NCBI RefSeq assembly: GCF_011682145.1
Contig: NZ_WHJH01000010.1
Span: forward strand, 1 to 64,000
Origin: Massilia mucilaginosa
GTDB lineage: Bacteria; Pseudomonadota; Gammaproteobacteria; Burkholderiales; Burkholderiaceae_D
Direction: 5' to 3'
DNA length: 64,000 bases
The notes under the pieces are model-generated. The model made no database searches. It saw nothing but the letters and a program-made list of their open reading frames with translations, and had not been told where the DNA came from. Positions 16,482 to 63,785 of the stretch are shown in pieces; positions within the stretch are counted from its first letter, which is position 1; each line of letters begins with the position of its first letter. Position numbers and translations under genes: made by a program.

Positions 16482-19400
16482 ATCTTGTTATGAACCTGTT
16501 CGCCAGATTTGCCGGTGTCGTCTTCGGTCGCCATCTGTGGATATTCCTTGGCATGGTTTCCCTGTGCTGCATGATCTGGGTGCTGGGGCCGATCATCGCC
16601 ATCGGCCAGATGCGCCCGCTGGAGAGCGAACTGGCGCGCTGGTGCGTGATCGGACTGGTGTTTGCCTTCTGGCTGCTGCGCGCGCTGTACCGCAACTGGC
16701 GCGCGGCCCGCCTGAACTCCCAGCTGCTGACGCAAATCCGCACGCCCGCCGCACGCCCGAATGCCGCGCCGAGCCCCGCCAACCCGCACCTGGACGAACT
16801 CGGCCAGCGCTTCCAGGACGCCTCCGAGAAACTGAAGACGGCCAGGTTCGCCACCGACGCCAATCAAGGCAAGCTGGCTTTCCTGCAACGCTTCTCGGGC
16901 CAGTATCTGTATCAGCTGCCGTGGTACGTCTTCATCGGCGCGCCCGGCTCGGGCAAGACCACGGCGCTGGTCAATGCCGGCCTGGAATTCCCGCTGGCTG
17001 AACAATTCGGCAAGGCGGCCATTCGCGGCATCGGCGGCACCCGCAACTGCGACTGGTGGTTCACCAATGAAGCGGTGCTGATCGACACGGCCGGCCGCTA
17101 CACCGTGCAAGAAAATCGTGACCATGACCAGGGAGAATGGCAGGGTTTTGTCGATCTCCTCAAAAAATTCCGGCCGCGCCAGCCGCTCAACGGCGCCATT
17201 CTGACCATCAGCATCGCCGACCTGCTCGGCAGCAGCGAGCAGGAACGCGCACTGCATGCGCTCACCTTGCGCAAGCGCCTGCACGAACTGCGCGATCAGC
17301 TCGGCATTCAATTCCCGGTCTACGTCCTGATCACCAAGGTCGATCTGCTGGCCGGTTTTACCGAGTATTTTGCCCAACTGAGCAAGGAACAGCGCAGCCA
17401 GGTATGGGGCCTGACCTTCAAGCTGGACGCCGTGCGCGACAGCAGTTTCGACTTGCCGGGCGCTTTTTCGGCCCAGTACAAGCACCTGCTGGAACGCCTG
17501 TACGCCAGCCTGCCCGAGCAGCTGCTGGCCGAACACGACCCGCGCCAGCGCGAACTGGCCTACCTGCTGCCGCAGGAATTTGCCGGCCTGGAAAGCATCC
17601 TGAGCCAGTTCCTGGCGCACGTCTTCGTCTCGTCGAAATTCGAATCGAACGCCTTGCTGCGCGGCGTGTACTTTACCAGCGGCACCCAGGAAGGCACCGT
17701 GTTCGACCGGGTCCTCGGCGGCATCAAGAACTTCTTGCAGATCAATACCGGCCAGCGCTCGCCGCAGATCGGCGAACCGGGCCGCAGCTTCTTCCTGCGC
17801 AGCCTGTTGCAAGACATCATTTTCAAGGAAGCCGGCCTGGCTGGCATCAATGAACGCTGGCAGAAGAAGCAAACCTGGCTGCGCACCGCCGGCTACGCCG
17901 CCACCGCCGTGCTGGCCGTCGCGCTCTCGCTGGCATGGATCAACAGCTACCGCGCCAACCAGGCTTACGTCGACGACGTCGCAGCGCGCCTGCCAGCGCT
18001 CGAAAAACGCCTCGGCGCAGTCAAACTGAGCGACCGCGAACCGATCACCAGCGTCATGCCGATGCTCGACGCCTTGCACGCCGTGCCGGTCAGCACGGTG
18101 CTCGACGTGGACAAGCCAGCGTTCGCTTACCAGCTGGGCCTGTATCAGGGCGGCAAGCTGCAAGCGGCATCCACCCGCGCTTACGAACGGGCGCTGGACG
18201 ACATGTTCCTGCCGCAGCTGGCGCGCCGCCTGGAAGACAGCCTGCGCCAGGCCCCGGCCAACGACGTGGAACTGAGCTACAACGCCCTCAAGGCCTACCT
18301 GATGCTGTTCGACCCGGCCCATTACGACGCCGATTTCCTGCAAGCGTGGTTGTCGCTGGACCTGGAACGTCAATTGGGCAGCGCCCTGTCGAACGTCCAG
18401 CGCGAGGACCTGCGCGCCCATCTGAAGCGCTTGCTGGCGCAACGGATCGTGGCCTCGCCGTTTGCAATCGACGAGCCGCTGGTGGCGCAAACGCGTGAAC
18501 GGCTGCTGACGCATACCCTGGCCCAGCGCGCCTACGGCACCATGCGGCGCATGCTGCAAGGTAACAATCAACTGCCGACCTTCAATGTCGGCACCGTGGT
18601 CGGTCCCCAGGCCCCGCTGGTGTTCCGGCGCGCAAGTGGGGCCAGCCTGAATCAGGGCGTGCCCGGCTTGTACAGCTATCGCGGCTACTGGGAACTGTTC
18701 GCTCCCGGCCTCGATGCGCGCATCGCCAAACTGGCGGAAGAAGAGAAATGGGTCCTGGCCCAGCCAAAAAGCGCGCCAGCGCAGGCCGCAAGTGTCGACA
18801 ACCTGGCCGCCTGGAGCGCCGAGGTACGGCGCCTGTACCTGACCGACTACATTCGCGTATGGGAAGACTATCTGGGCGACCTGCGCCTGAAGACCGGCGG
18901 CACCCTGGCCCAGAACATCCAGGTCGCGCGCATCCTGTCGTCAAGCGATTCGCCGCTGGTGCGCTTCATGAACGCGGCCGCCAGGGAAACCACCCTGGTG
19001 CGCAAGGACGAGATCAACGGCGCCACCATCGTCGACAAGGCCCGCGACAAACTCGACAGCACGCGCTCGTCCCTGAGCCAGATCTTCGGCCAAAACGACC
19101 TGGCCAACGGAAAGCGCGAGGCGGCCGCTACCGAACGCGTGGAAATGCTGGTCGATACGCGCTTCGCCGCGCTGCGCGAATTCACGACGGCACGCGACAA
19201 AGGCGGCAAGGCCCCGATCGACGGCATTGTCGAGACCCTCGGCGAGCTGTACGCCCAGTTGATCGCCACCGAAACCGCCCTGCGCGACGGCGCCACGCCG
19301 CCACCGAACCAGGTGGTCAGCAAAATCCTGGCCGAAGCCGGCCGCCTGCCGACCCCGTTTCGCGGCATGCTGGGCGAACTGGCCAATTCGTCCGGCAACA

Positions 19401-49284: not shown

Positions 49285-50499
49285 TCAAGCGAACGGCTGG
49301 TCCAAACTCGCGGCGGGCCTGGTGAACCACCGAGGCCCGGATGCGCTCATGTAGAAATGATCTTCCAGACGAACGCCGAACTCTCCGGGAACGCAAATCA
49401 TCGGCTCGTTGGAGAAACACATGCCTTGTTCGAGTGCGCGCGTTTCGCCGCCGACCAAATAGGGGCCTTCGTGGATATCCAGGCCGATGCCGTGACCGGT
49501 CCGGTGCGGAAGACCAGGCAGTGCATATCCCGGTCCAAAACCATGTGCTTCCAGAGAGCGCCTCGCGGCCTTGTCCACTTCTTCGCAAGGAACGCCGAGT
49601 TGCGCCGCGTCAAACGCGGCCTGCTGCGCGGCTTTCTCCGCGTCCCAGACGAATCTCTGCCTCTCCGACGCCTCGCCAAAGACATACGTTCTGGTAATGT
49701 CGGAAAGATAGTGATACAGCTTGCATCCGGTATCGATGAGAACCATATCGCCCTGTTTCAAGGTTTGCACGTAGTTCACGCCGTGCGGATACGCGGTGGC
49801 TTCGCCGAATAGTACAATGCAGAAATACGAACCACTCGATCCCACACGCTTGTGAGCAAGGTGGATGAACTCTTCAACTTCTTTCGTGGTAATGCCTTCG
49901 TGCAAGATTGAAGCCGCAGCGCGCTGCACTTGCAACGTCATGTTCATTGCGCATTGAATCAAGGCGATTTCCGCCGCCGACTTGCGCGCCCTGCAAAATG
50001 AGGTCAGCGGCGACGCCGGCCGCAGTGCATACCCCTCGGTCGCCGCCTGTATTGAAGAAAACAGAAACAGTGGCGTACTCTCGTCGATATACAACCGGCG
50101 CGCTGGAGCGGAGCTGTTCGAGATGCCCAGCTTCTCCAGAACTTGACGAAACGTGAGCGCCGGGTTGTCATGCTCATCCCAGCAGACAATGTCACCAGGG
50201 ACTACCCTGAATTTCTCGATCGTCCCCCGCTCGAACGCGGGTGCGATATACACCAATTCACCGGCAGCGGGCAGGATTGCTCCGACCATTCTCTCGCTAG
50301 GATGCCATTGCATGCCAGTGAAATAGGTCAAGTTGCTTCCAGCATTCAAATATAGCGCGTCAATATCTTGCGACACCATAAAACGCTGTGCGCTCTTCAT
50401 CCGCGCAAGGTGTTCCTCCATCCCGATCGGGATCGCGTGCTCGGTCATCAGCGACAATTCGTCAAGCGCCTGTTGCCAAGACTTCTTTCCAATATTCAT
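49285..50499 (-). CDS. M24-family Xaa-Pro peptidase (first copy)
   Basis: A 404-residue cytoplasmic metallopeptidase of the prolidase/aminopeptidase P family, which cuts next to proline. The creatinase N-domain (1-165, YLNAGSNLTYFTGMQWHPSE) precedes the pita-bread catalytic domain. Metal ligands are visible in VLIDTGCKLYHYLSDITRT (two Asp), HRTGHGIGLDIHEGP (His), FSNEPMI (Glu) and GVRLEDHFYM (Glu). ATG 50499 is preferred over the GTG at 50505 because a GGGGAG ribosome site is nine bases from it. It lies 40 bases after the M9 protease gene on the same strand, so it should share its transcript. It is distinct in sequence from the second M24 protein encoded near 57 kb. Confidence 0.88.
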   Translation of the reverse strand: MNIGKKSWQQALDELSLMTEHAIPIGMEEHLARMKSAQRFMVSQDIDALYLNAGSNLTYFTGMQWHPSERMVGAILPAAGELVYIAPAFERGTIEKFRVVPGDIVCWDEHDNPALTFRQVLEKLGISNSSAPARRLYIDESTPLFLFSSIQAATEGYALRPASPLTSFCRARKSAAEIALIQCAMNMTLQVQRAAASILHEGITTKEVEEFIHLAHKRVGSSGSYFCIVLFGEATAYPHGVNYVQTLKQGDMVLIDTGCKLYHYLSDITRTYVFGEASERQRFVWDAEKAAQQAAFDAAQLGVPCEEVDKAARRSLEAHGFGPGYALPGLPHRTGHGIGLDIHEGPYLVGGETRALEQGMCFSNEPMICVPGEFGVRLEDHFYMSASGPRWFTRPAASLDQPFA

Positions 50500-50539
50500 T
50501 TTCACCGACTCCCCCCGTTTTTCGTTTCACTACAAACGT

Positions 50540-51478
50540 TCATTTGGCAGTAACCTTGTTTCCATTGGCGCCAGACTTGAGTTCGCTCGACACTGTTATT
50601 AACCAGTCCTCGAACTCCTTATCGTAGCTGTCGCCCCACTCTCGTGTGACGGCTTGATATCTGGGGTAATCTCCGACGCGGGTAAAGGCAAGCATCCTTT
50701 CAATTTCCTGGCGCTTGTTTTCCATCATGAAGCGAACCGCAAGATAACTCCACGCGTACACGCGATCCTTGCCGGTATTGTTTTCGTAACCCGTGTCGAA
50801 AAGCGCACTGAGCTTGAAGGCATTGGTTTTCGCGATCCGCATGGCTTCGGGATGCGCCGCCCCCCGCGCCAGATACTCCGCAATTCCTTCAGTCCACCAC
50901 ACCAGATACGGCGTGGCCGGTGCCGGTTTCGGGCAATTTTCAGGCGGACTATGCGAATCATGCAGATTGCGGCAAAAGTCGCCATGCAAGTTGAAGCGTG
51001 CGTCGAGGAAATGAACAAACTCGTGTTCCAAATTGTGGATACTGCCATCCGCTTTCTGATTGGCAATGAACTCCGCTTGATTGCCTGGCCGCTCAGGAAA
51101 GCCTTCCAGGTACATGCCGCCATTATCGGTCGGAATATCGAAATGCAAGCCCGCGTATTTTTCATACTCCGCCTTCGAACGATAAATATTCGCACGCAGA
51201 CTCTCGTTGAAGTCGTTTGAAACAGATTTGCCGATCGTTGCAAACATGCGGTGGAAGCGTTGCTCAACGCCGCTGAGCGATGTGCAAGCCCTGGTCTCGA
51301 ATTCGCGCGTCAGTGCCTGGGAGCGCAGCGTCACACTCGGGCCGCATCGCCAAGTACGGCTGAGTACCGCATCGACGCTTGCCGTGGCGTGAGGGGGAGT
51401 GCCGAAAGCGAACGACGAGGCATTGGCTGCAAACATGAGCGTCGCGGCATAAAAGGCTGTGAGAGGTCTGGAATACAT
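50540..51478 (-). CDS. Exported collagenase-like metalloprotease (M9 type)
   Basis: A 312-residue exported zinc protease. The first 25 residues form a signal peptide. The zinc site is H152-E-F-V-H156, and the third ligand is the Glu197 of WWTEGIAEYLA, 41 residues further. The spacing and the surroundings (HNLEHEFVHFLDARFN) match the catalytic subdomain of bacterial collagenases (M9) rather than thermolysins. The large activator and collagen-binding domains of clostridial collagenase are missing, so this is a minimal form. Likely target: collagen or gelatin-type proteins or peptides, in periplasm or medium. It is the first gene of an operon with an Xaa-Pro peptidase and divergent from a TonB receptor gene. 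Confidence 0.8.
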   Translation of the reverse strand: MYSRPLTAFYAATLMFAANASSFAFGTPPHATASVDAVLSRTWRCGPSVTLRSQALTREFETRACTSLSGVEQRFHRMFATIGKSVSNDFNESLRANIYRSKAEYEKYAGLHFDIPTDNGGMYLEGFPERPGNQAEFIANQKADGSIHNLEHEFVHFLDARFNLHGDFCRNLHDSHSPPENCPKPAPATPYLVWWTEGIAEYLARGAAHPEAMRIAKTNAFKLSALFDTGYENNTGKDRVYAWSYLAVRFMMENKRQEIERMLAFTRVGDYPRYQAVTREWGDSYDKEFEDWLITVSSELKSGANGNKVTAK

Positions 51479-52067
51479 GACGGTGCGTTGTGAATGAGTC
51501 TGAAGCCATTCTACGGCAGCCGCATCTGTCGCGAGCTTATTGCTGCTGGCTTATGCCGATTTCCCCGGGTTTGATCCATCGATTCCTGAAACCTCAGTAT
51601 CGTCCCGGCATCAAACGAGCTGCGCGGATCTGAATACGAGGCGGCAAGCCGAATTGATAATGTCCAGATCCGCAAGTAGCGAACGCCTGAGCACCAAACC
51701 AGCGCCGCGCTACGACCGCGCATAGTGCCGGGGCGTGCGCCGATCTCGCGCCGCCTGACGCCAATTGTGTGCCAAGTCCCTGTGTAAGTTACTCGACAAA
51801 AGCGGTCGAAAGTCGCATAGACGGGAATTGTCAGCCTGGTTAGCCTATCTCACCCGAACGTGTTTTTATAGCGAGCATATTCGGGTTGGAATCAAAACAC
51901 CATTTCCAGATAGATACTGCTGCATCGCACCTTTGCAAACGCATATACATTGATCAGTCCCAAATGATAGCAATTGCAATATTTACACTTGTGTATTTTA
52001 CACTGTTGCCAGCAAACTATTCGAAAATGTCGTCGTGTACATCATAAAAATGTTTCAGGAGACTTTC
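51479..52067. other. Divergent intergenic region between the protease operon and the TonB receptor gene
   Basis: About 590 bases with no convincing gene. From 51850 it becomes AT-rich, and near 51980-52015 the motif TTTACACT occurs twice close together. Promoters for both directions should be here, possibly under shared control. The ribosome site of the receptor gene (CAGGAG, 52056-52061) is at the right end. Confidence 0.45.
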
Positions 52068-54917
52068 GTGCAAGAAAAATTAATCAGTGCCAGTATTCGC
52101 TTCATCTGCATGACTACGGCAATCGGCGGCGGACTGGCGTTCGGCCCAGCCGCTCATGCCCAGGATGGCGGAATCCAGCGGGTCGAAATTACCGGGTCCG
52201 CAATTAAACGCATTGCCAAAGAAGGGGCATTGCCGGTTCAATTTCTGAGCTCTGCGGACATTCAAAAATCGGGCGCGAAGAGCGTGGAGGAACTGGTCCA
52301 GTCGCTCCCTTCCATGCAGGGCTTCGTCACCGCATCCGAGTCGGTCAATGGCGGCGGCGGCGGCGTTCAAACCGCATCACTTCACAATGTCGGCGCCGCT
52401 TACACACTGGTGCTGCTCAATGGCCGCCGGCTCGCTTCCTATGGATCGGGCAGCGCTGTCAATCTGGCGAGCATTCCGATGACGGCGGTGGAAAGGGTGG
52501 AAATTCTGACGGACGGTGCGTCCACCCTGTACGGGTCCGACGCCATCGCGGGCGTTATCAATTTCATTCTGAAGAAAAACCAGCAAGATTTTCGATTGGA
52601 CGCCGGAGCCGGCCGCCCCGGGAAGAAAGGCGGGCAAAGTTCCAGCTTCTCCGCCTCCAAGGGTTTTGGCGACCTCGACAAAGTTGGCTACAATGTGCTG
52701 CTCACGTACGCCCGCGACAATCAAAGTGAACTCAACGCGAAAGATCGCGATTTCTCCAAATCGGGCTTAAGACAGTTCACCGAGAACGGGAAGACCTACT
52801 CGACCTACCTTCTCGCCGCGAATACTGCACCGGCCTCCGCCACATTGAGCCTGAAGGACAATTCGGTAAAGATCTTCTCGCCGAACTATTACAAAGATGG
52901 AAAATGCGCGCCGGATACCGCTTTCGTCGGCAGCAGCGACGACAAGTCCTGCTGGTACGACTATGCGGGCACCGTTCAATTGGTTCCCAAATCGGTACGC
53001 GACAGTGTATTTTCTTCGTTCAACATGAAGATCAACGAGGAGCTGTCTGTTTTCGGCGAACTGGTCCTGTCGAAGTTTACCCAGACGGCGCGCTACGCAC
53101 CGGCCGCGCAACGCTTGAGTTTGCCCTTGAATGGCGATTTGTACGCCAGGGAAGTTCTGCCCTACCTGGCGAACATCGGGGTCGCGCCTGGCGACGTGAA
53201 ATCAGCCTCCATGAACATCCGTTTTACGGATGCGGGAGGCAGGGCGCGCGACTACATGACCAAAGCAAAACACCTCGCCCTTGGCGCATCGGGCGTCAAG
53301 AACGGGTTCGACTACTCGGCATCGTTTACCCATTCCGAGAACAGCCAGGAATCGACCTTCGTGGCCGGCTTTTTGAGCAAGAATACTTACAACGATATTG
53401 TCGCCTCGGGCAAATTCAATCCCTTCGGCCCGTCCGGGAGCGCATCGGCGGTGCTGGCCCCCGCCGTCCTGAATACGACCGAAAACACCACCGACGTCAA
53501 ATTGGACAGGATCAGCGCCTCCGTCGGCCATGCGCTTTTCGACGCGCCCGGTGGGGCCTCGCAGCTGGCGCTCAGTGCGGACTATGCGCGACAGCGCTAC
53601 GATTTCATGCCCAGCGCAATTTCCCAAGGAAGCAACGCGCAGCAGCCCAACTATACCGATACGCCCCTGGGCGACTCCGCCGATCACCTGCCGGTGCGTG
53701 CCAGCCGCAACAACTGGGGTGCATCGGCTGAATGGATGACGCCCGTATCGAAGACGCTGGAGGTGACCGCGGCCGCGCGCTACGATGCCTACTCCGCAGT
53801 GAAAAACAAGATGGTATTCGATCCATCCGACGGCAAGCTTCTTCCTTCCGCCGAGCAAGGCAATGCGAACAAGAAGGCGACCTACAAGCTCGCGTTCCGC
53901 TACACCCCTGTTGAAAACCTCCTGCTCAGGGGATCGTATGGAACCGGTTTCAAGGTGGCGAGCATGGACGCGATCGCTTCCCCGACTGTCCAGGCAGGCA
54001 ACACTTCCGGGTCCTACGCCTGCCCGGTCAGGGCGCCTGATCCACGCGCCGCCTACTGCACCGGAACCACCCAGCAGTACTTGCTCAGCGGCGGCAACAA
54101 TCTGTCGGGTTCAAGTGGTCTGCGCCCCGAAAGGTCTCAACAATATTCGATCGGCGCCCGTTTCGATCCGGTGAAAAACCTGTCTCTCGGGCTCGATCTG
54201 TGGTCGATCAAAATGAAAGACCAGTTGACCACGCTACCGGAGCAATTCCCGTTCGCGGACCCGGCCAAGTTCAACAACAACTTTTCGATTGTCTTCGATC
54301 AAGGAATTGGCGCCAATAAGCTCGTCACCTTGCTGCCGACCTTTAACCTCGCAGCCGCCAGGTACGGCGGCATCGACTGGGATAACTCGTATACCATCAG
54401 GACCAGCCTGGGCAAATTGGACCTCAAATGGAACGGCACCTACATGTTGAAGTCCGAAGTCGAGGTTCCGGGATCCCCTACGGAAAGCAGCGTCGGCCGG
54501 TTTGACGCCTACAACAACGCGACGTCGAGAACAGTGTCGCGCTTATCGGCCAGTTTTGCCAGTTCCGAGCGCTATACCAACACGCTCGCCATCAACTTCC
54601 GCTCCGGTTATCACGACCAGGTGCTGACGCCGGACGACAATGCGCTGAAACTGGTCAATGCCGATGGAAGTTTGCCGGTCGGCTTCGTCGGCCTGGCGCG
54701 CAAGGTGAAATCGTTTACAACCGTCGACTGGCAAACGCGCGTGCAATTGAAGCAGTACAGCAATTTGACAATCTCGGCGGGCATTCGCAACCTGCTCGAT
54801 GCGGATCCACCGCTCAGCATTCGCACCGCTGGCGGCGGCAATCAGGCTGGCTATGACGCGCGCTATGCCAGTGCTCTCGGACGGCAGTTCTATGTCAATG
54901 GCGGCGTGAGCTTCTGA
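52068..54917 (+). CDS. TonB-dependent outer-membrane receptor
   Basis: A 949-residue outer-membrane receptor. GTG 52068 is preferred as start because CAGGAG lies six bases before it and a signal peptide follows at once (ending GPAAHA); ATG 52050 is possible. The plug (about 40-170) shows RVEITGSAIKR (TonB-box-like region), VEELVQSLPSM, YTLVLLNGRRLASYG, and VERVEILTDGASTLYGSDAI. The rest is a beta barrel ending in aromatic F (GRQFYVNGGVSF). The plug type is that of oligopeptide- or carbohydrate-uptake receptors, not of siderophore receptors. With peptidases, a peptide transporter and proline catabolism nearby, peptide uptake is the best guess. Confidence 0.88.
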   Translation: MQEKLISASIRFICMTTAIGGGLAFGPAAHAQDGGIQRVEITGSAIKRIAKEGALPVQFLSSADIQKSGAKSVEELVQSLPSMQGFVTASESVNGGGGGVQTASLHNVGAAYTLVLLNGRRLASYGSGSAVNLASIPMTAVERVEILTDGASTLYGSDAIAGVINFILKKNQQDFRLDAGAGRPGKKGGQSSSFSASKGFGDLDKVGYNVLLTYARDNQSELNAKDRDFSKSGLRQFTENGKTYSTYLLAANTAPASATLSLKDNSVKIFSPNYYKDGKCAPDTAFVGSSDDKSCWYDYAGTVQLVPKSVRDSVFSSFNMKINEELSVFGELVLSKFTQTARYAPAAQRLSLPLNGDLYAREVLPYLANIGVAPGDVKSASMNIRFTDAGGRARDYMTKAKHLALGASGVKNGFDYSASFTHSENSQESTFVAGFLSKNTYNDIVASGKFNPFGPSGSASAVLAPAVLNTTENTTDVKLDRISASVGHALFDAPGGASQLALSADYARQRYDFMPSAISQGSNAQQPNYTDTPLGDSADHLPVRASRNNWGASAEWMTPVSKTLEVTAAARYDAYSAVKNKMVFDPSDGKLLPSAEQGNANKKATYKLAFRYTPVENLLLRGSYGTGFKVASMDAIASPTVQAGNTSGSYACPVRAPDPRAAYCTGTTQQYLLSGGNNLSGSSGLRPERSQQYSIGARFDPVKNLSLGLDLWSIKMKDQLTTLPEQFPFADPAKFNNNFSIVFDQGIGANKLVTLLPTFNLAAARYGGIDWDNSYTIRTSLGKLDLKWNGTYMLKSEVEVPGSPTESSVGRFDAYNNATSRTVSRLSASFASSERYTNTLAINFRSGYHDQVLTPDDNALKLVNADGSLPVGFVGLARKVKSFTTVDWQTRVQLKQYSNLTISAGIRNLLDADPPLSIRTAGGGNQAGYDARYASALGRQFYVNGGVSF

Positions 54918-54924
54918 TTGCGAA

Positions 54925-54958
54925 GCGGGATGCGGCTTTAGCGCGGCATCCATCCCGC
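54925..54958 (+). terminator. Hairpin after the TonB receptor gene
   Basis: A perfect eight-base stem, GCGGGATG (54925-54932) and CATCCCGC (54951-54958), starts seven bases after the stop codon. The loop is 18 bases and no T-tract follows, so termination may be weak or Rho-assisted. Confidence 0.35.
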
Positions 54959-55098
54959 TCGACTCGGCAGCCGGTGGCGCCAGCCCCGCTGCCGTTCATG
55001 CATCGGGCCGCGGCGCCATCCGCACACACGCGAGCCAGTGTCGTGTGTGAAATCGACATCATCGGCAATCCGTGGAGCCGCCTTCGATCCGCCAAGCG

Positions 55099-56772
55099 CT
55101 AGTCTCTCGTCTTCCGATCCAACACCAGCATCGCCACCGCCGATGCCAGTGCCAGCAAGGCAAAGCCGGACCACATCAGCAGGGGCTGATGAAGTCCCTT
55201 CGCGATGGAGGAGTATGCCCAACCGGAGAGAACGCCGGCCAGCAGGCTTCCCAGCGCCATCGATATGAAATAGTAGCCCATGAACATGGCGGTCTTTCCT
55301 GGCGGGGAAACCGCGCTGACAAACTCCTGGCTCTTGGGGGACACAATGGTTTCCGCGATGGCAAAGACGGCGATTGCCCCCAGCACGATCGCGCCACCGT
55401 AGGCCGAGCCTGCCGATAATCCGATGACGATGAGCGAGACCATCAGCGTGAGCACGCCGAAGACCAGCACCGGCAGTGCTCGGAAGCGGCGGGCGAACAC
55501 GCTCACGCCAATCTGGCAGACGATGATGATCAAGAATTCGATATTGATCATGTACTCGGGCGCGATCTGGCGATAGGTCGCCGCCAGATGCTGCGCCAGG
55601 CTGTCGGCGTCGGTGCGACCAGACTGCAGCGCGCCAAGACTGCCATGGAGCACGTCGTCCGGTACCAGGATCCTGAGATTGGCCAGCGAGCGACTCACTT
55701 CCATGATCGCATCGCTGGTGGGCGGCCGCTGCTGAACGCTGGCCAGCAGTGCTTTCACCTCATCCAGGTTGACGTGCGCGAGCACATCGGCGGCGCGCGG
55801 CGATACCGCAGTGAAAAACCGCACCAGGTCGCCCGTATCGACAAAGTCCTTGATGAAAAGCGGCAGTGTCAGGAAGAGCTGGTAGTAAACCGCCCAGAAA
55901 ACCGACAAAATGAGCAGGTAGGCCACAAAGCGCCGGTCGCCGACGCGGACCGGCTGGGCATGCCAATTGCCTGAGCGGCTGTTACGCACCAGGAAACTCC
56001 AGGCCATGTTCCCACCGATCCATGCCAGCAGGACCGATAGCAGGACCAGGAACGATCCGGCCGTCTTGATAAAATACATGACGACAGCGAGCGCGGGAAC
56101 AATCAGGACCAGGAGCCGGACGTTGCCAAGGACCTCGCGCGAGTCGGCCAGCACCGTCTTGAGCGAGCGCGTATCGCTGCCGGTTGCGGCAGGCTCGCGG
56201 TACAGAAAGATGGCCGGTATCAGATTGATCGCCACCCAAAAAGACGACATCGTAAACACCAGATCCCAGCTGATCGCCCGCACATAGCCGGCAACGATGG
56301 GGCCAAGAAAGCCGCCCACATTGACCATCATGTAGAAAATACCGAAGCCCAGCCCGCGATTGCTGTCGTCCGTCGTGCGGCCGACCGTCCCGATCGCCAC
56401 CGGCTTGAATATCGCGGCGCCGACGGCAACCAACACAAATACCGCGCAAAATGGCCAGAAACTGTGCATCTTCCCCAACAGAAAATAGGAGGGCGCCATG
56501 ACCAGCGACGACACGATGAACATCTTCCGGTAGCCGTAGCGATCGGCCAGCGCGCCAGTAAACACGGGGAGAATGTACAGCACAAACGGCACAATACCTT
56601 GGAGAAACCCCCTCTCCTCATCGCTCAAACCGAGACCACCCTGCGTGCGGGGCGTGGTCATATACAGCGACGACACGGTGAAGAACCCGTACCACGCCAG
56701 GCGCTCGAATATTTCCATGGTATTGGCGACATAGAATGAGCGGTGAAACTGCTTCCCCTGGCGCTGTTTCAT
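55099..56772 (-). CDS. POT/PTR2-family proton-coupled peptide transporter
   Basis: A 557-residue inner-membrane protein with about 14 hydrophobic segments. The family signature is visible: EIFERLAWYGFFTVSSLYMT at the start (the ExxER-like motif), DRYGYRKMFIVSS, GTVGRTTDDSNRGLGFGIFY and FYMMVNVGGFLGP. POT proteins import di- and tripeptides with protons. A large loop (about 320-410) carries helices unlike standard POT members, as in the longer bacterial group. It is cotranscribed 43 bases after the Xaa-Pro peptidase gene, so imported proline peptides would be cut at once. Confidence 0.87.
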   Translation of the reverse strand: MKQRQGKQFHRSFYVANTMEIFERLAWYGFFTVSSLYMTTPRTQGGLGLSDEERGFLQGIVPFVLYILPVFTGALADRYGYRKMFIVSSLVMAPSYFLLGKMHSFWPFCAVFVLVAVGAAIFKPVAIGTVGRTTDDSNRGLGFGIFYMMVNVGGFLGPIVAGYVRAISWDLVFTMSSFWVAINLIPAIFLYREPAATGSDTRSLKTVLADSREVLGNVRLLVLIVPALAVVMYFIKTAGSFLVLLSVLLAWIGGNMAWSFLVRNSRSGNWHAQPVRVGDRRFVAYLLILSVFWAVYYQLFLTLPLFIKDFVDTGDLVRFFTAVSPRAADVLAHVNLDEVKALLASVQQRPPTSDAIMEVSRSLANLRILVPDDVLHGSLGALQSGRTDADSLAQHLAATYRQIAPEYMINIEFLIIIVCQIGVSVFARRFRALPVLVFGVLTLMVSLIVIGLSAGSAYGGAIVLGAIAVFAIAETIVSPKSQEFVSAVSPPGKTAMFMGYYFISMALGSLLAGVLSGWAYSSIAKGLHQPLLMWSGFALLALASAVAMLVLDRKTRD

Positions 56773-56815
56773 GGTCTGGCACGTCCTGCAATGCGGGCTC
56801 TGGTATTGCTGCGCT

Positions 56816-57910
56816 TCATACGCTGATCTGGAAAAACTTCGGCGCGTGGGTCAGGCAGCTTGCGCCGGCTTCGCCGACCAGGACATCATCTTCGTAGCGA
56901 ACACCGCCGACGCCAGGAATGTAGATGCCAGGCTCGATGGTGACCACGAATCCCGTGTGCAGGGTGTCCTCGCAGCGCTGTCCCAGGAACGGGTGTTCGT
57001 GGAGCTTCAAACCCACACCATGGCCGAGTCCCTTGCCCGCGTAGTGCGCGAACGGCGAGCGGTCGATGATGCGCCTTGCTTCCCGATCAATTTGCTGTCC
57101 GCTGACGCCGGCGCGTGTCGACGCGATCGCCGCTTCCTGCGCTCGCAGGACGGTGCCCATCATGGAGAGCTGCTGCTCGGTCGGCTCGCCCGCAACGAAG
57201 GTGCGCGTCATGTCGGAACGATACCCATTGATCATCGCCCCGAAATCGATCAAGACGAAATCGCCCTCTTTCAAGGCGCGATACCCCGGCACGCAATGCG
57301 GCTTTGCCGAGTTTTCCCCGAACCCGATTATGATTGGAAACGCGAGATCATCCGCCCCCTTGGCCCGCATCAAGTACGCGAGCTCCATGGCCAGGTCGCG
57401 CTCGCTCACGCCGAGCCGAATCTGTGCGACAAGCGCTTCCAGCGCCTGGTCGGCGATCTGCGCAGCCCGCCTGATTTGGGCGACCTCCCACTCGTCCTTG
57501 CACGCCCGGAGACCTTCGACAATACCGTTGATTGGAACCAGCGTTATCGGCTGGAAGTGGTGTTGAATCTTCGTGAACAAATCCAGCGACAGATGCTCGG
57601 ACTCGACCGCCACTCTGGAAACGGCCGCATTGCCCAGCACCTCGCCAATGACCTCGGCCAGGGTGGTTTTCTCCCTGTCCCGGCAAATCACAGTACAGTG
57701 CAGGCAGTCGGCATTGGCTTGCTCGACAAACCGGTAGTCGGTAATCAGATGCAGAGTATGACTTGCGAGTACGCCATACGCGGCCTCGCCGGTATATCCG
57801 GTCAGATATCGGAGATTCTCCGCTGAAAAGACCAGCAGCGCCTCCATGCCATGAGACCGCATCAGCGCCTGGGCATTGGCAATTCTGGATTGATAATTGG
57901 GTATTGGCAT
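56816..57910 (-). CDS. M24-family Xaa-Pro aminopeptidase/dipeptidase (second copy)
   Basis: A 364-residue cytoplasmic metallopeptidase. N-domain: NLRYLTGYTGEAAYGVLA, DYRFVEQANADC. Catalytic domain ligands: VLIDFGAMINGYRSDMTRTF (two Asp), GLGHGVGLKLHEHP (His), VVTIEPGIYIPG (Glu), GVRYEDDVLV (Glu). This is the PepQ/YpdF-like short form. Start at 57910 is the usual beginning (PIPNYQSRIANAQAL); an in-frame ATG at 57958 would add 16 atypical residues. A hairpin-plus-T-run lies about 150 bases upstream on the same strand. It is the first gene of an operon with the peptide transporter. Confidence 0.9.
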   Translation of the reverse strand: MPIPNYQSRIANAQALMRSHGMEALLVFSAENLRYLTGYTGEAAYGVLASHTLHLITDYRFVEQANADCLHCTVICRDREKTTLAEVIGEVLGNAAVSRVAVESEHLSLDLFTKIQHHFQPITLVPINGIVEGLRACKDEWEVAQIRRAAQIADQALEALVAQIRLGVSERDLAMELAYLMRAKGADDLAFPIIIGFGENSAKPHCVPGYRALKEGDFVLIDFGAMINGYRSDMTRTFVAGEPTEQQLSMMGTVLRAQEAAIASTRAGVSGQQIDREARRIIDRSPFAHYAGKGLGHGVGLKLHEHPFLGQRCEDTLHTGFVVTIEPGIYIPGVGGVRYEDDVLVGEAGASCLTHAPKFFQISV

Positions 57911-58055
57911 GGTTAATACTGTCCGATTCAGCACAGCTGCCGACGATCGCATCTTCACGTCGCACCCGAAGCAATAGGCAAGCGATCCGGCGTTCCGGCC
58001 GGGGTCCTATTGCGACAGGCGCAACCATATAAACTGCGCGCCGGAATGAGTAATC

Positions 58056-58081
58056 AAAAAAAGAGGAGCCAGAAGCTCCTC
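58056..58081 (-). terminator. Intrinsic terminator or attenuator upstream of the Xaa-Pro peptidase gene
   Basis: On the minus strand GAGGAGC-TTCTG-GCTCCTC followed by seven T: a perfect seven-base stem (58075-58081 with 58063-58069), five-base loop and T-run (58062-58056). It ends a leftward transcript about 145 bases before the ATG at 57910. No good leftward gene is seen above it, so it may be a leader attenuator. Confidence 0.75.
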
Positions 58082-58848
58082 CAATTTGCCATCGATGGGT
58101 TGACGCCGATACGCCCAAACCCTGGCAAACGTGGAGACAGGACCAGTATAGGAAGCAGCGCCTGCGCTGTCTTGACCTGGCGCCCGGGCAAAATGCGCTA
58201 AAACGGCAGCATCGTATGCAACACCCCGGAAACATGCGCGATGCAAGCGCCAGGTGCCGGCTCGCACACCCTTTCGGCAGAACTGGCCATGCTCGCCAGC
58301 CAAGGCAGGAATGGTGTCGTTGACGGCGCGGCACGGTACGGTACGGAGGCTTGCAAGGCGAATCGCATGAGTATCATGCACAATTCGAGCTGCCAGTGAT
58401 GGGGCCTCGAGCGGCGTAATTGATCTGGGCGTGCGCTGCATGTTCGAAAAGCAGCGGCCGAAGGTCCGCTGGAATTTGAGCAAGCGTGTCTTGCGCAGAT
58501 ACGCTTCGCGCGCGCCGTGCGTTTGCTCGCCCGGCGCGACGACACGCGCATTGCCGATCGCGTTCGCAAACGGCGACGCGGCTGAGAACAATCCATCCCG
58601 ATGGCGCAGGCGCGCTCGCTATGCCTGCGCCGAACAGTTAATGGCGCAAGGCGGACGGCAGACTGCTTACGCTGAGTCTACTGAAACTATTTGTAAACTC
58701 GCCGGTGAGATGGTGCTCCTTTTTTGCCCCGATGGTTTCACCGAGGATAGTAAAGGCACCGGCGAGCCCGACTACCCACAGCATTTTTCTACAATACGCT
58801 GCGCCACTGCCGCGATACGCTGGCAGCTCTTCAACCAAGGGACATCAT
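58082..58848. other. Intergenic region upstream of proline dehydrogenase with an inverted repeat
   Basis: About 770 bases lacking a gene I trust; open frames on both strands have no protein character. CTCGCCGGTG (58698-58707) recurs inverted as CACCGGCGAG (58757-58766), 49 bases apart, 83-151 bases before the proline dehydrogenase start. This may be an operator pair or a leader hairpin. A run of T (58720-58725) lies between them. Confidence 0.45.
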
Positions 58849-59877
58849 ATGAACACGAATAGCAACCCCCAATTTTCCCCAGCATGGCAGGGACGGGTCA
58901 ATGACGCCGCCGAGGCCTTGCGTCGGTTAGCACTTGATGAAGGCGCTAAGGAGCGCTTCTGCCACGATCCCGCGCTCCAGCCGTTCCTGGCGAAGATGTC
59001 AGGCCGCTACGTAGCCGGCAATTCGATCGAGCAGGCCGTTGATGCCGTCCGTGCGATCGGTGCACGAGGCCATGCCGTTTCGGTGGAGTACGTTGGTGAG
59101 AGCTGCCGCGACCGCGCGAGAGCCGATGCCGAAACCACGGTATTCCTGCGCGTGGTCGCGGCGCTCGACGCGGCTAAGCTGGCGTCGACGATCTCGCTGG
59201 ATCTATCTCACATTGGCTCAACAGTCGATCCAGAGCTGGGCTTCGTCAATGCCAGGCGTATTGCTGCCGCCGCCGCGCGCGCGGGGCGCGAGGTAATGAT
59301 CTCGATGGAGGGATCGGAACGGGCGGACTTGATCTACGCGATCTACGGCCGTTTGCACGATGAGGACGGCGCGGCGCATGTCGGCATCACCGTGCCGGCA
59401 AAGCTGCATCGCAGTAAATTGGATTTTCCGAAGCTGATGCAATACCCGGGCAGAATTCGTCTGGTCAAGGGCGCCTTTGCCGAATCAGCCGACATCGCCC
59501 TCACGCGCCATGATCCCTTGCTGGAAATCCGCTATCGCGCCTTCGCGGACGAGCTCATCGCAAGCGGCCGGCCATGCTCGATCGCGACGCATGATGGCGC
59601 GATCCAGCAATATGTCGCCGAGCGCATCAGTCCCCAGGCGGCGCATCGGCAAGGGGTGGAGTTCGAATCGCTCATGGGCCTTGGAACGGAACAAATCGAT
59701 GAACTGTGCCGGTGCGGCTACCCGACCCGCGAATATGCGGTATTCGGAACGGAATATTTTCTCTATGTGCTCAACCGGATTGCCGAGGAGCCCTTGCGCG
59801 TGTATCAAGCCGTGATCGATTTGCTGGCGCCAGGGCTTCCCGGTAGTGGCCAGGCGTGGCGGCCACCAGCTGTTTGA
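58849..59877 (+). CDS. Stand-alone proline dehydrogenase
   Basis: A 342-residue FAD enzyme that oxidises proline to pyrroline-5-carboxylate. Family motifs along the barrel: VSVEYVGE, TISLDLSHIGS, GREVMISMEGSERADL, RIRLVKGAFAES, SIATHDGA, EFESLMGLG, and the C-terminal R-EYAVFGTEYFLYVLNRI helix. It lacks the aldehyde dehydrogenase half of PutA, the usual form in Gram-negative bacteria. Start ATG 58849 has AAGGGA upstream. The last hundred bases overlap, on the opposite strand, the 3' end of the AraC-type gene. In context it would consume proline freed by the two Xaa-Pro peptidases. Confidence 0.87.
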   Translation: MNTNSNPQFSPAWQGRVNDAAEALRRLALDEGAKERFCHDPALQPFLAKMSGRYVAGNSIEQAVDAVRAIGARGHAVSVEYVGESCRDRARADAETTVFLRVVAALDAAKLASTISLDLSHIGSTVDPELGFVNARRIAAAAARAGREVMISMEGSERADLIYAIYGRLHDEDGAAHVGITVPAKLHRSKLDFPKLMQYPGRIRLVKGAFAESADIALTRHDPLLEIRYRAFADELIASGRPCSIATHDGAIQQYVAERISPQAAHRQGVEFESLMGLGTEQIDELCRCGYPTREYAVFGTEYFLYVLNRIAEEPLRVYQAVIDLLAPGLPGSGQAWRPPAV

Positions 59878-60640
59878 ATGTGTGCTGGAAGTGGGCCTGG
59901 TCTGCAAAACCGAGGTCGATTGCCACGTCGGCGAGGGCCTTTCCCTCTTTGAGCTGGACGCGTGCCTGCTGGATCCGTCGATTGATCAGGTAGGCATGGG
60001 GACTCATGCCAAAGGTCTTCTTGAATTCTCGCATGAAGTGGGCGGACGAGAGACCGGCCACGTGACTGAGTGTGTCAATCGACACTGCTTGGCGAAAATG
60101 CGCATCGATGAATTCAGCGGCGCGCGACAGGCGGGATGTGCCAGGGTTGGCCAGCGGGCGAGACATCGCCAGGCACTGCACCAGTGCGGAAAAAAAATCG
60201 ATGCTGGCGCACTGTTTTTGCAAAATGCTTGCATGCCTGTCCATGAGTAGCCGGGACAGCCTATTTAGCTGAGCGAAAAGCTTGGCGGTCAGCGCTTGCG
60301 CGAATGGCCGGTATTGCGTGTCGGCCTCGCCTGCAAGCATGCTTTGCAATTGGCCCAGCCACGCTGGGTCGACATACAACATCGAATAAGACCAGGCCTC
60401 GCCAAGGTGTGGGTTGCAAGCATGAACCTCGCCGGGGTTCATGATCACGACAGTGCCGGCGCCAACCGTTTCAGTACATCGTCCATTGAAGTATGTGCTT
60501 GTGCCAGAACGGATCGCGCCGATCGAAAACACATCGTGCGCGTGCTTTCCATAGCAAAGTGCGCGCCCATCGGCTACCGTACGCAGTTCCAGATAGGGCA
60601 AGGCAGCGTCGCGCCAGAAAATGCAGTCGGTGGCATCCAT
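59771..60640 (-). CDS. AraC-family transcriptional regulator
   Basis: A 289-residue regulator. The N-terminal cupin-like ligand-binding domain (about 10-150) has the HDVFSIGAIRSGTSTYF and VVIMNPGEVHACNP blocks. The C-terminal double helix-turn-helix (about 180-275) has VSIDTLSHVAGLSSAHFMRE and ADVAIDLGFADQAHFQHTFK. The last 15 or so residues run past the domain and overlap the 3' end of proline dehydrogenase by 107 bases. Start at 60640 is chosen (KRMDATD-like start after an AAGAG site); ATG 60661 adds seven residues. It is a likely regulator of the peptide/proline genes, perhaps sensing a peptide or amino acid. Confidence 0.88.
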   Translation of the reverse strand: MDATDCIFWRDAALPYLELRTVADGRALCYGKHAHDVFSIGAIRSGTSTYFNGRCTETVGAGTVVIMNPGEVHACNPHLGEAWSYSMLYVDPAWLGQLQSMLAGEADTQYRPFAQALTAKLFAQLNRLSRLLMDRHASILQKQCASIDFFSALVQCLAMSRPLANPGTSRLSRAAEFIDAHFRQAVSIDTLSHVAGLSSAHFMREFKKTFGMSPHAYLINRRIQQARVQLKEGKALADVAIDLGFADQAHFQHTFKQLVAATPGHYREALAPANRSRLDTRARAPRQSG

Positions 60641-60819
60641 GCGAAGCTCTTTTAAGTACATTCGTCATCGGGATCTCATGATACATGCTTTCTAGATCGC
60701 TTTCTGCTGGCATCTACCTGTCTCTCGCAACAGCCTGGGGACGACTGCCGTAAACGCTGAGCGCGCTGAGCCCGGCATGCCGTGGCCGGAATGGCGACAG
60801 GACAAGAACTGGATACAGT

Positions 60820-61877: not shown

Positions 61878-63029
61878 TCAGACTGTCCCGCCGTGGGTTT
61901 CAATGATGGCGGCAAGCGGCCTACGCAGGCATTCGCCGTGCCGCTGCCTGATCGCACCGAGGCGCGCGAAGAAAACGATGCGCCGGTCGCCGCCGGCCAG
62001 GCGCTGCAATTCGCCGCGCGCCCGGTCGTGCTGCAGCATCACGCTGAGCGGGTGCAGCGCAAGTCCGAGCCGCTGCGCGTTCAGCCATACTTCCATTAGG
62101 CGCGCGCCGGCCTGGACCATCACCGTCGATGCAACGTCGTCCGACGGCAGGCTACACAACAGCAGTTGCGCCGAGTCTTCTACCAGCGCCGCCAGTTGCG
62201 CCGCCATGTTATGCGGCACGCGCACGATGCGCAGCACTTGCATGACCTCCGGCGCCAGCACACATTGCATGATGCGCGTACGCAGCGGCGACATCGGTCC
62301 CATCAGGCTATGCAGATAAAAACCGTCCTCGGCCGGCTTGCGCGGATCGAAATGCAGGTAGCGGTAGGTTTCCTTCCATGCGCGGTAGCTGGAGAAGTCC
62401 AGCGCCGCGAACTGCCGTACCAAATCGGCGGCACGGGCAATGAAGGCCGGGCTGCGTTCCACCCGGATATGCAGTGGGTCCCCGGTCAGCTGTTCCGGCC
62501 AGTGCCGTTCCAACAATGGCGCGAGCACCATGTCACTGCAACTGCCCTCGGCAAACGGCGCGCGATGAGTACGGCGCTGCCGGACGCTGTCTTGCAACCC
62601 GGCTAATGCCGTGGCATCCGGAACGCGCTGCGGCTGCAGAGCAAGCAACACCAGGCCCCGGCAGCCATGCCCTTGTTCCAGCGATTGCAAGAACGGCATG
62701 GCTGCCGGGGCCTGGGTATCGAGCATATCCAGCCAGTGCCAGTTGCAGTGAAAGCCCAGCGCATCGAAGGCCGCGCTCAACAAGCCGAGGAACATGCCGC
62801 AACTGAGCTGCATTTCCAGCGCAAGACTGGGTAATGCTCTCAACGTACGCTTGCGATCGATGCCCAGCAGCAGCAACTGCTCGTGCTCCGGCCACGCATG
62901 TGCCGGCAAAAGTTGCGCCCGCATCCGCCTGTCTTCGATGTGCACCAGCTTCCATGGCTGGCAGTTGTGCGACGACGGCGCCTGGCGCGCAATGTCGGCC
63001 GCTTGTAGCAGGTTTTCTTCAAATTCCAT
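61878..63029 (-). CDS. pigM: Nitroreductase-like oxidoreductase, PigM-type
   Basis: A 383-residue protein of the large nitroreductase-like family: IARQAPSSHNCQPWKLVHIE near the start (flavin site), GMFLGLLSAAFDALGF, and the C-terminal NAQRLGLALHPLSVMLQH. In prodigiosin clusters the gene at this place, directly after the phosphopantetheinyl transferase, is pigM, which oxidises the alcohol HBM to the aldehyde in the bipyrrole branch. The name is given by order and family; direct similarity was not computed. It lies nine bases after pigL with an AAGGGA ribosome site. The next gene expected in Serratia, pigN, is not found; the IS6 remnant is there instead. Confidence 0.75.
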   Translation of the reverse strand: MEFEENLLQAADIARQAPSSHNCQPWKLVHIEDRRMRAQLLPAHAWPEHEQLLLLGIDRKRTLRALPSLALEMQLSCGMFLGLLSAAFDALGFHCNWHWLDMLDTQAPAAMPFLQSLEQGHGCRGLVLLALQPQRVPDATALAGLQDSVRQRRTHRAPFAEGSCSDMVLAPLLERHWPEQLTGDPLHIRVERSPAFIARAADLVRQFAALDFSSYRAWKETYRYLHFDPRKPAEDGFYLHSLMGPMSPLRTRIMQCVLAPEVMQVLRIVRVPHNMAAQLAALVEDSAQLLLCSLPSDDVASTVMVQAGARLMEVWLNAQRLGLALHPLSVMLQHDRARGELQRLAGGDRRIVFFARLGAIRQRHGECLRRPLAAIIETHGGTV

Positions 63030-63038
63030 GAACGTCCC

Positions 63039-63785
63039 TTACCCGTGCCCGTGTGACACGCACTGTCCTACCAGCGCCAGCGCGTAATCGCCGATCAGCC
63101 CGCCGTAGCCGCTAAGCTGCGCTCCTTGGCTGCTCGGCAACTGTGCCACAAGGCGCGGCGACACGCCCCATGACAAGCGGCCGTCGCAGCCGATTGCTTC
63201 GAGCTCAATGTCGGCAAACCAGCCGAATATGCTTTTCCCGTGTGCCTTCATGAAGGCTTCCTTGAAGGCCCAGACCGCGGTACGGACGGCATCGCCGCCG
63301 GCGGCGCTGACGCGCAATTCATGCGCAGTAAATGCCATCTCGCGTGCTGCATCCGGAAACTGCCTCACACGCTCTATATCGATGCCGACCGGATAAGCAC
63401 TGGCCGCAGCCACTGCATATCCTTGCGAATGGCTGATGCTGACATGGCCAGCGGCCGCCTGCGGCTGGCCGCGATTGTGTTCGGCACTGCTGTTGCCGAT
63501 GACCAGCGCATGCAACGGCGATTCGGCACCGGCCAGCGCATGCAGATGCTGCAATGCGGCCTTGGCGGCGACGCGCCCGGCCATCCATTCGCGGCGCCGC
63601 TTGGCCAGCCGCAATCCGTGCAGCCGCTCGCGCTCGGCATTGCCAAACATGCGTGCGAGGTAAACATGATCATTTTCGCGCCGCGCTACCGCGTCGACCG
63701 ACACTGCGCTGACAACGCAGTCACCGATGCCCACTGTGCAAGCCGTTTCCGTCTGCGGCAACATGATTGCGGCAATGCCGCTCAT
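63039..63785 (-). CDS. pigL: 4'-Phosphopantetheinyl transferase, PigL-type
   Basis: A 248-residue Sfp-type transferase that moves phosphopantetheine from coenzyme A to carrier proteins. Motifs: AGRVAAKAALQ, GHVSISHSQGYAVA, VGIDIERVRQF (Mg-binding Asp and Glu) and WAFKEAFMKAHGK. In the prodigiosin pathway PigL charges the carrier domains PigG and PigH. The start ATG 63785 overlaps the stop of the previous gene (ATGA); an open frame upstream to 63860 is out of that context. Position between HapK/PigK and PigM supports the assignment. Confidence 0.85.
   Translation of the reverse strand: MSGIAAIMLPQTETACTVGIGDCVVSAVSVDAVARRENDHVYLARMFGNAERERLHGLRLAKRRREWMAGRVAAKAALQHLHALAGAESPLHALVIGNSSAEHNRGQPQAAAGHVSISHSQGYAVAAASAYPVGIDIERVRQFPDAAREMAFTAHELRVSAAGGDAVRTAVWAFKEAFMKAHGKSIFGWFADIELEAIGCDGRLSWGVSPRLVAQLPSSQGAQLSGYGGLIGDYALALVGQCVSHGHG

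Follow-up and report, generated by a model that had tools for sequence, protein, structure and literature searches.

A candidate pared-down module for the use of proline- and hydroxyproline-rich peptides in Massilia mucilaginosa

Gene families at the locus

The window analyzed here is a 64,000-nucleotide stretch (G000:C11:1-64000) of the 7.7 Mb Massilia mucilaginosa genome. Between positions 49285 and 60661 it carries seven neighboring genes that an earlier note, made from the sequence alone, had proposed as a single locus covering a route that begins with extracellular collagen cleavage and ends with proline oxidation. All seven are open reading frames where that note had placed them, spanning 11.4 kb, and their families could be identified with Pfam. 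Comparison with other genomes suggests that the five genes at 49285-57910 quite likely form a pared-down module for eating proline- and hydroxyproline-rich peptides, such as those from gelatin or collagen, and that a short M9 peptidase and a POT-like transporter would make up its core. The features of the locus are as follows.

49285-50499, minus strand: M24a, Xaa-Pro dipeptidase-like, extra copy (Pfam M24, 190.5 bits, and Creatinase_N)
50540-51478, minus strand: short M9 peptidase (P0002), 312 residues (Pfam Peptidase_M9, 249.5 bits)
52035-54917, plus strand: TonB-dependent receptor (P0003; Pfam Plug and TonB barrel)
55099-56772, minus strand: POT-like MFS transporter (P0004; MFS_1, 107 bits; PTR2, 23.3 bits)
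56816-57910, minus strand: M24b, PepQ/YpdF-like Xaa-Pro peptidase (Pfam M24, 223.7 bits, and Creatinase_N)
58423-58469, plus strand: probable remnant of a long M9 gene, 47 bp (DNA match to L013:6105-6059)
58849-59877, plus strand: proline dehydrogenase (PRODH)-like protein (P0006), a neighbor judged to be outside the module (Pro_dh, 64.4 bits)
59771-60661, minus strand: AraC-family regulator, a neighbor judged to be outside the module (Pfam AraC-type)

The TonB receptor, the two M24 peptidases and the AraC-type protein belong to the Pfam families under which they had been named. By their coordinates, the M9 and M24a genes form a same-strand pair with a gap of 40 bp, and a second such pair consists of the M24b gene and, 43 bp downstream, the transporter gene; both pairings had been proposed before. 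For the TonB receptor, a GTG at 52068 behind AGGAG appeared by eye to be the likelier start. Divergent promoters had also been suggested, and these found no support, as a promoter scan detected 5 sigma-70-like sites versus 6.3 expected from shuffled sequences.

The assignment of P0004 to the POT peptide transporters was upheld in part. Its scores lie under the curated cut-offs (PTR2, 23.3 vs. 27; TIGR00924, 85.9 vs. 130.2), and its orthologues in loci L093 and L034 exceed the PTR2 cut-off, at 36.1 and 29.8. The first helix contains an ExxER motif, which we take to be the motif of POT/PTR2 oligopeptide:H+ symporters, and E20, E23 and R24 are invariant in 4 of 4 orthologues. The best match among solved structures was the di/tripeptide transporter YePEPT (E 6.7e-12), followed by the 4ikv/4ikx "di-tripeptide" chains, with the efflux pump NorA also among the matches (E 6e-8). 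P0004 is thus probably a POT-like MFS transporter that imports di- and tripeptides.

Both M24 proteins resemble proline-specific peptidases of known structure. In a phmmer search M24a matched the "proline dipeptidase" entries 5cik and 4r60 (E 1.6e-117); M24b matched the "proline dipeptidase" 3q6d (E 2e-68) and YpdF (5cnx, E 3.9e-56). Alignments to 5cik and 3q6d, read by eye, showed that both proteins keep D, D, H, E and E, presumably the five metal ligands of the M24 domain. We considered whether M24a is simply a gene of the genus core and rejected this: the core copy is located elsewhere, with 63-67% identity to the window copy, which represents an additional paralogue. Of 16 other genomes of the genus, 14 have the core copy at full length, one (G013) has it in fragments and one (G011) lacks it; in the source genome it lies on contig C372, where its neighbors looked by eye like genes for a TRAP transporter. 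In one genome (L175, G007:C203), a DapA/LhpH-like gene (42%) lies close to the core copy, and ~1.1 kb separates the latter from a gene of the Pro_racemase family that resembles hydroxyproline epimerases. Given this neighborhood, a link between the M24a family and hydroxyproline may exist at other loci as well.

The M9-type protease, P0002, contains the HEFVH and WWTEG motifs that had been reported for it, both aligned with structure 7wss, and aligns to the collagenase structures 7wss, 7esi and 9l5o with E values of 1.4e-54 to 2.2e-52. A signal peptide was recognized by eye. P0002 consists of the peptidase domain only, with a two-Cys insert between the two motifs, and Pfam detected no match in it to the activator domain (Peptidase_M9_N, or M9N). 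This domain is present in long M9 proteins from the same genome (L002) and from Massilia atriviolacea (L013), and the source genome codes for an M9N, M9 and PPC protein on contig C55. A structure model of P0002 had a mean predicted local distance difference test (pLDDT) score of 72, falling below 50 in the insert (171-180), and was not used as evidence.

Collagenases of the VhaC and Ghcol type share with P0002 the peptidase domain, HExxH and WWxEG. As described for VhaC in the parts of PMC8799719 drawn on here, the activator domain is required for triple-helical collagen, and the peptidase domain, fused to EGFP, cleaved a peptide and left triple-helical collagen uncut; in ColG, according to passages of PMC11032491, the activator domain opens the helix. 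Since P0002 lacks the activator domain that VhaC and ColG need, it probably trims peptides that are already unwound rather than acting as a collagenase. Triple-helical collagenase activity of P0002 was rejected on the same ground, and with it the proposal that the M9 protein of this locus carries out extracellular collagen cleavage. The protein would be located in the periplasm or at the outer membrane.

Distribution and genetic linkage

A search for short M9 genes in 398 genomes of the phylum identified two distant genomes, G880 and G886, with frames of 322-326 residues scoring 271-296 bits. In G880 (locus L093), the short M9 gene is accompanied by a POT orthologue and by genes whose products exceed NCBIfam cut-offs for 4-hydroxyproline epimerase (573; cut-off 376), PepQ (487; cut-off 339) and pyrroline-2-carboxylate reductase (373; cut-off 322). 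A trans-3-hydroxyproline-dehydratase-like racemase (344 of 540) and a PepP-like M24 protein (344 of 465) remain under theirs, and the locus further encodes a DapA-family protein, an aldehyde dehydrogenase and a D-amino-acid-dehydrogenase-like protein. Short M9 genes found blind to the transporter occur in four genomes besides that of the window (G004, where the gene is broken, G017, G880 and G886), and in three of the four they lie beside a POT gene.

A POT model was searched in the 246 genomes of the family to which G880 belongs (f141), and orthologues were found in 32 of them, representing 13 of 52 genera. The 32 POT loci, comprising L093 and 31 further stretches, cover 19.9 kb each except for L132 (14.5 kb), L141 (17.4 kb) and L154 (11.7 kb). 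As controls, 29 other 19.9-kb stretches, hand-placed rather than random, were taken from 21 of the same genomes. Neighbors were counted by tblastn (E ≤ 1e-12, 40% coverage) using marker proteins from the window and from L093. Pyrroline-2-carboxylate reductase and an M24 peptidase of any type were each found in 25/32 POT loci (24/31 without L093; 10 of the 13 genera), trans-3-hydroxyproline dehydratase in 21 (20/31; 9 genera), an M9 peptidase of any type in 14 (13/31; 8 genera) and 4-hydroxyproline epimerase in 5 (4/31; 3 genera). By best match, the M24 neighbors were M24b-type in 17 loci, PepP-type in 8 and M24a-type in 7. A P0003-like TonB receptor was present in 3/32 POT loci versus 0/29 controls. 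Each of the proline/hydroxyproline, peptidase, TonB, PRODH-like and AraC markers scored 0/29 in the controls, two of which matched generic markers (ALDH, ECH). Four loci from a single genus, g516 (L145, L146, L147 and L150), contain M24a, short M9, M24b, POT, reductase and dehydratase genes together.

M24 and POT families are widely used in peptide salvage, and the locus could accordingly serve general di- and tripeptide salvage with no special tie to collagen, its M9 and M24 enzymes processing any proline-containing peptide. Six POT loci (L135, L137-L140 and L154, the last spanning only 11.7 kb) carry no other marker, which fits such a role and runs contrary to a universal link. The neighbors found elsewhere are specifically trans-3-hydroxyproline dehydratase, pyrroline-2-carboxylate reductase, 4-hydroxyproline epimerase and M9 peptidases, and hydroxyproline is chiefly a collagen residue; on this evidence we regard general salvage as unlikely. 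It is possible that the transporter of genus g521 has another substrate.

Two observations concern individual POT loci. In L146, a prolyl oligopeptidase family S9 gene (17135-19258) is located directly past M24a. In genus g521 (L137, L138 and L139), the POT orthologue is divergent to a gene for a ~700-residue protein and none of the proline/hydroxyproline markers is found; that protein (L138:6964-9060) has no Pfam match, and a nearby gene was read by eye as succinylarginine dihydrolase.

The short M9 proteins share features beyond their size. Twelve intact members (window, L034, L093, L094, L125, L130, L131, L145, L146, L147, L150 and L155), 11 of which come from POT loci, partly owing to the way they were collected, are 302-337 residues long, with the M9 match near the N-terminus and the two-Cys insert between HExxH and WWxEG. 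Five of them (window, L034, L146, L130 and L093) were scanned with Pfam; all match M9 and none matches M9N. The insert is present in 0/8 long M9 proteins (L127, L129, L133, L136, L152, L002, L004 and L005); contrary to a strict rule, a lone 320-residue M9 protein (L095) also lacks it. By eye, a lipobox-like Cys is present in six short M9 proteins (L093, L094, L145, L146, L147 and L150). In an M9 tree constructed without L136, a split at 100/99 sets the short M9 proteins apart from the remaining M9 rows, and those of the window and G017 are paired at 95/92 and grouped with genus g347 at 97/92. A POT tree of 34 rows, from which L155, with a POT gene divided between two frames, was left out, joins the window and M. 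atriviolacea with G017 at 90/92. The trees are unrooted, and the direction of transfer is not readable from them. A literature search found no description of this subfamily, most subscription journals being outside its reach.

Within the bacterial family of M. mucilaginosa, POT orthologues (E ≤ 1e-40) were detected in 3/195 genomes: that of the window, M. atriviolacea and G017. Short M9 matches above 250 bits occur in the same three genomes, beside POT in each; within the genus, 2/17 genomes have the short M9 type. The other 17 family genomes with an M9 match (E ≤ 1e-10) score 178-203 bits, with frames of 747-826 residues except in G059 (464 residues). In G017 the short M9 and POT genes are found together with an OCD-family gene, whose product has pyrroline-2-carboxylate reductase as its second-best solved match; M24a, M24b, TonB, PRODH-like and AraC genes had no match in 19.9 kb of this genome.

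A related-locus search with P0004 returned one locus, on NZ_RXLQ01000030.1 of M. atriviolacea (G004:C24, taken as this species). Its DNA is syntenic with window positions 51779-58212 at 83% identity and 50600-51597 at 75%. Scattering of the genes in close relatives had been named in advance as grounds for refutation, and the outcome was divided: M24b (81% identical), POT (86%), TonB (92%) and a broken short M9 gene are syntenic, whereas M24a, PRODH-like and AraC genes had no match of their own in the M. atriviolacea stretch, even though its contig continues for ~0.9 kb past the short M9 gene. Upstream of its M24b gene, M. atriviolacea carries a gene for a 974-residue M9 protein with M9N, M9, PKD and PPC domains. 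Window positions 58423-58469 match this gene (L013:6105-6059) over 47 bp with 91.5% identity (E 1e-12) and are co-linear with the syntenic block; compared as protein, the match covers 14 residues at 26.9 bits, versus 24.3 for the best of 100 shuffles. This segment is probably a remnant of an M. atriviolacea-type long M9 gene. If so, each species would retain one intact M9 gene at the locus, and a different one in each. With the long-M9 match here and the broken short M9 gene there, the pattern looks like a reciprocal loss of the two M9 genes.

The probable M9 remnant, the broken short M9 gene of M. atriviolacea, the locus's lack of hydroxyproline enzymes and the patchy presence in 3/195 genomes could also be signs of an acquired locus in decay, whose genes have ceased to function together in this lineage. 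The five module genes of the window are intact open frames, however, and the identities of TonB, POT and M24b with their M. atriviolacea counterparts suggest constraint, making decay most improbable.

Several points weigh against reading the five genes as a module for proline/hydroxyproline-rich peptides. Pfam identified no hydroxyproline catabolic enzyme among the seven locus proteins, whereas the reductase and dehydratase are the steadiest neighbors elsewhere; a Pro_racemase-family gene is present on another contig (C111), such genes occurring in 16/18 genomes searched. Spread over 13 genera, the 32 POT loci are not independent of one another, the markers were drawn partly from L093, itself one of the 32, and six loci carry no marker. 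No POT orthologue was seen at 1e-40 in 368 other genomes of a sample of the class, and in G886 (L094) the short M9 gene has no neighboring POT gene. In M. atriviolacea the short M9 gene is broken, with matches in two frames and with stops, and M24a is not at the corresponding place; the TonB link is based mainly on two close species, and P0004 scores under the curated POT cut-offs.

Genes judged to lie outside the module

The stand-alone proline dehydrogenase with which the path had been proposed to end, P0006, has the PRODH fold but not the usual active site. Its AlphaFold model (mean pLDDT 82.0) is a PRODH barrel; the 50 Protein Data Bank (PDB) matches listed are PRODH or PutA, and Foldseek aligned it to 2g37 at E 3.4e-20. 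At the positions aligned with Lys, Asp, Tyr and the first of the paired Arg, which we take to be conserved residues of the PRODH proline site, P0006 has D, S, K and N. In 13 sequences, comprising P0006 and 12 of 13 close homologues from the 195 genomes (L061 of G173 was left out), K is replaced by D, D by S and Y by K or R in all, and R by N in 12 and by H in one (L101). The subfamily thus has the same fold as the monofunctional proline dehydrogenases of Thermus and Deinococcus and, unlike them, has these residues replaced. Three weak homologues (L069-L071) with a mixed residue pattern were not counted in the subfamily. The source genome encodes PutA on contig C359 (G000:C359), and this protein retains the usual proline-site residues. 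A literature search for PRODH-like proteins with altered sites found none, with most subscription journals beyond its reach.

The genomic distribution also sets this gene apart. Of G017 and 17 genomes of the genus (18 in all), only that of the window carries it. The PRODH-like and AraC genes overlap tail-to-tail, by 107 bp in the window (59771-59877) and by 47 bp in L097 (6077-6123); L097, with AraC 55% and PRODH-like 64%, is the only one of nine other PRODH-like loci (9.8-13.5 kb) in which this overlap recurs, and M9, POT and M24 genes are found in 0/9 of them. Elsewhere near PRODH-like genes, a weak AraC match was noted in L104 (28%, 54 bits) and a DapA-like match in L100 (28%).

The seven genes lie within 11.4 kb and P0006 has a PRODH fold, both as expected if they constituted one complete path, running from cleavage of collagen outside the cell to oxidation of proline, with the PRODH-like protein as last enzyme and the AraC protein as regulator. 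Against this, PRODH-like and AraC genes are missing from all 32 POT loci (tblastn) as well as from the stretches of M. atriviolacea and G017, the active-site residues are replaced, PutA is encoded elsewhere in the genome, and the M9 protein has no activator domain. Such a path is very unlikely. Because both are absent from the POT loci, the PRODH-like protein has replaced residues, PutA is encoded elsewhere, and other PRODH-like loci contain no M9, POT or M24, we judge the PRODH-like gene and the AraC gene to be a separate unit outside the module; of the single locus proposed in the earlier note, the M9, TonB, POT and two M24 genes remain.

Further genes were noted in other parts of the window. 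Type VI secretion genes (VasE, DotU/OmpA, ClpV-type AAA, FHA C-terminal, VgrG-like) occupy 13756-42638. A 633-residue protein encoded at 1708-3606 matches an AbiEii-type nucleotidyltransferase, and its neighbor at 204-1688 has the Pfam Beta-lactamase (PF00144) fold. At 61881-63785, a nitroreductase-like protein adjoins a 4′-phosphopantetheinyl transferase, perhaps at the edge of a biosynthetic cluster.

A proposed module for proline- and hydroxyproline-rich peptides

Gene families, synteny, co-occurrence, linkage and the missing activator domain are observed; from them we infer a substrate, cellular locations, regulation and an order of steps. In the module reading, the TonB receptor would bring oligopeptides into the periplasm, where the exported short M9 enzyme, lacking a helix-opening domain, would cut unwound Gly-X-Y chains down to small fragments. 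The POT-like transporter would import the resulting di- and tripeptides with protons, the two M24 enzymes would split Xaa-Pro and Xaa-Hyp (hydroxyproline) bonds in the cytosol, and free proline would pass to PutA encoded on C359. If triple-helical collagen is used, the separate activator-bearing M9 protein encoded on C55 would be needed.

A locus of this kind had been thought not to be described. A collagen-utilization cluster of Colwellia BB5, ~21 kb in length with at least 15 genes, was published in 2021 (Borchert et al., PMC7883544), and its description there lists M9, a TonB receptor, an MFS transporter, YpdF, PepQ, a pyrroline reductase/OCD and hydroxyproline genes; a similar cluster is reported there for C. 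piezophila and for C. psychrerythraea GAB14E. As far as that description goes, the BB5 cluster and the window locus are alike in their M9, TonB receptor, MFS transporter, YpdF-type aminopeptidase and PepQ-type dipeptidase genes, the BB5 MFS and M9 proteins being likened to P0004 and P0002 by the published description only, and the cluster was also read as serving collagen peptide uptake and proline/hydroxyproline use. Hydroxyproline enzymes, peptidyl-prolyl isomerases and a PutR regulator are found in BB5 only, whereas the window has five module genes, a peptidase-only M9 and no hydroxyproline enzymes. The main text of PMC7883544 contains neither the word Massilia nor Betaproteobacteria. The window locus would therefore appear to be a pared-down, patchily distributed variant of an already published cluster type.

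The distant POT loci also resemble the neighborhoods of trans-3-hydroxyproline dehydratases, which in the sections of Zhao et al. (2014; PMC4113996) drawn on here are linked with OCD reductases and peptidases, in Bacilli and with TRAP/ABC systems. Dehydratase, OCD-type reductase, peptidase and transport genes are common to both; "collagen" and "oligopeptide" have 0 occurrences in the main text of that paper. VhaC, as described in PMC8799719, has the activator domain, while P0002 has none and carries the two-Cys insert in addition. Strong gelatinase activity and a colA gene are reported for Massilia antarctica in the portion of PMC9028926 consulted.

A broader proposal, which we put forward tentatively and as a whole, is that the short M9 proteins are an unrecognized M9 subfamily (peptidase-only, with the two-Cys insert, some of them lipoproteins) of periplasmic Gly-X-Y trimmers that partner a dedicated POT-like transporter; that the module, from which the hydroxyproline enzymes can be lost, moves between Massilia-type bacteria and gammaproteobacterial families; and that the PRODH-like neighbor may represent an enzyme family of its own, catalyzing something other than proline oxidation.

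These comparisons caution that "collagenase" and "proline dehydrogenase" are not to be read from family matches alone. They replace a guess based on a single sequence with a comparative statement, that a POT-like transporter, partly with a peptidase-only M9, is located beside proline/hydroxyproline enzymes and Xaa-Pro peptidases across families. They also offer a testable function for two protein groups that curated models name poorly: the transporter, which scores under the POT cut-offs, and the short M9, which matches a "Collagenase" model and would act as a trimmer of peptides already unwound.

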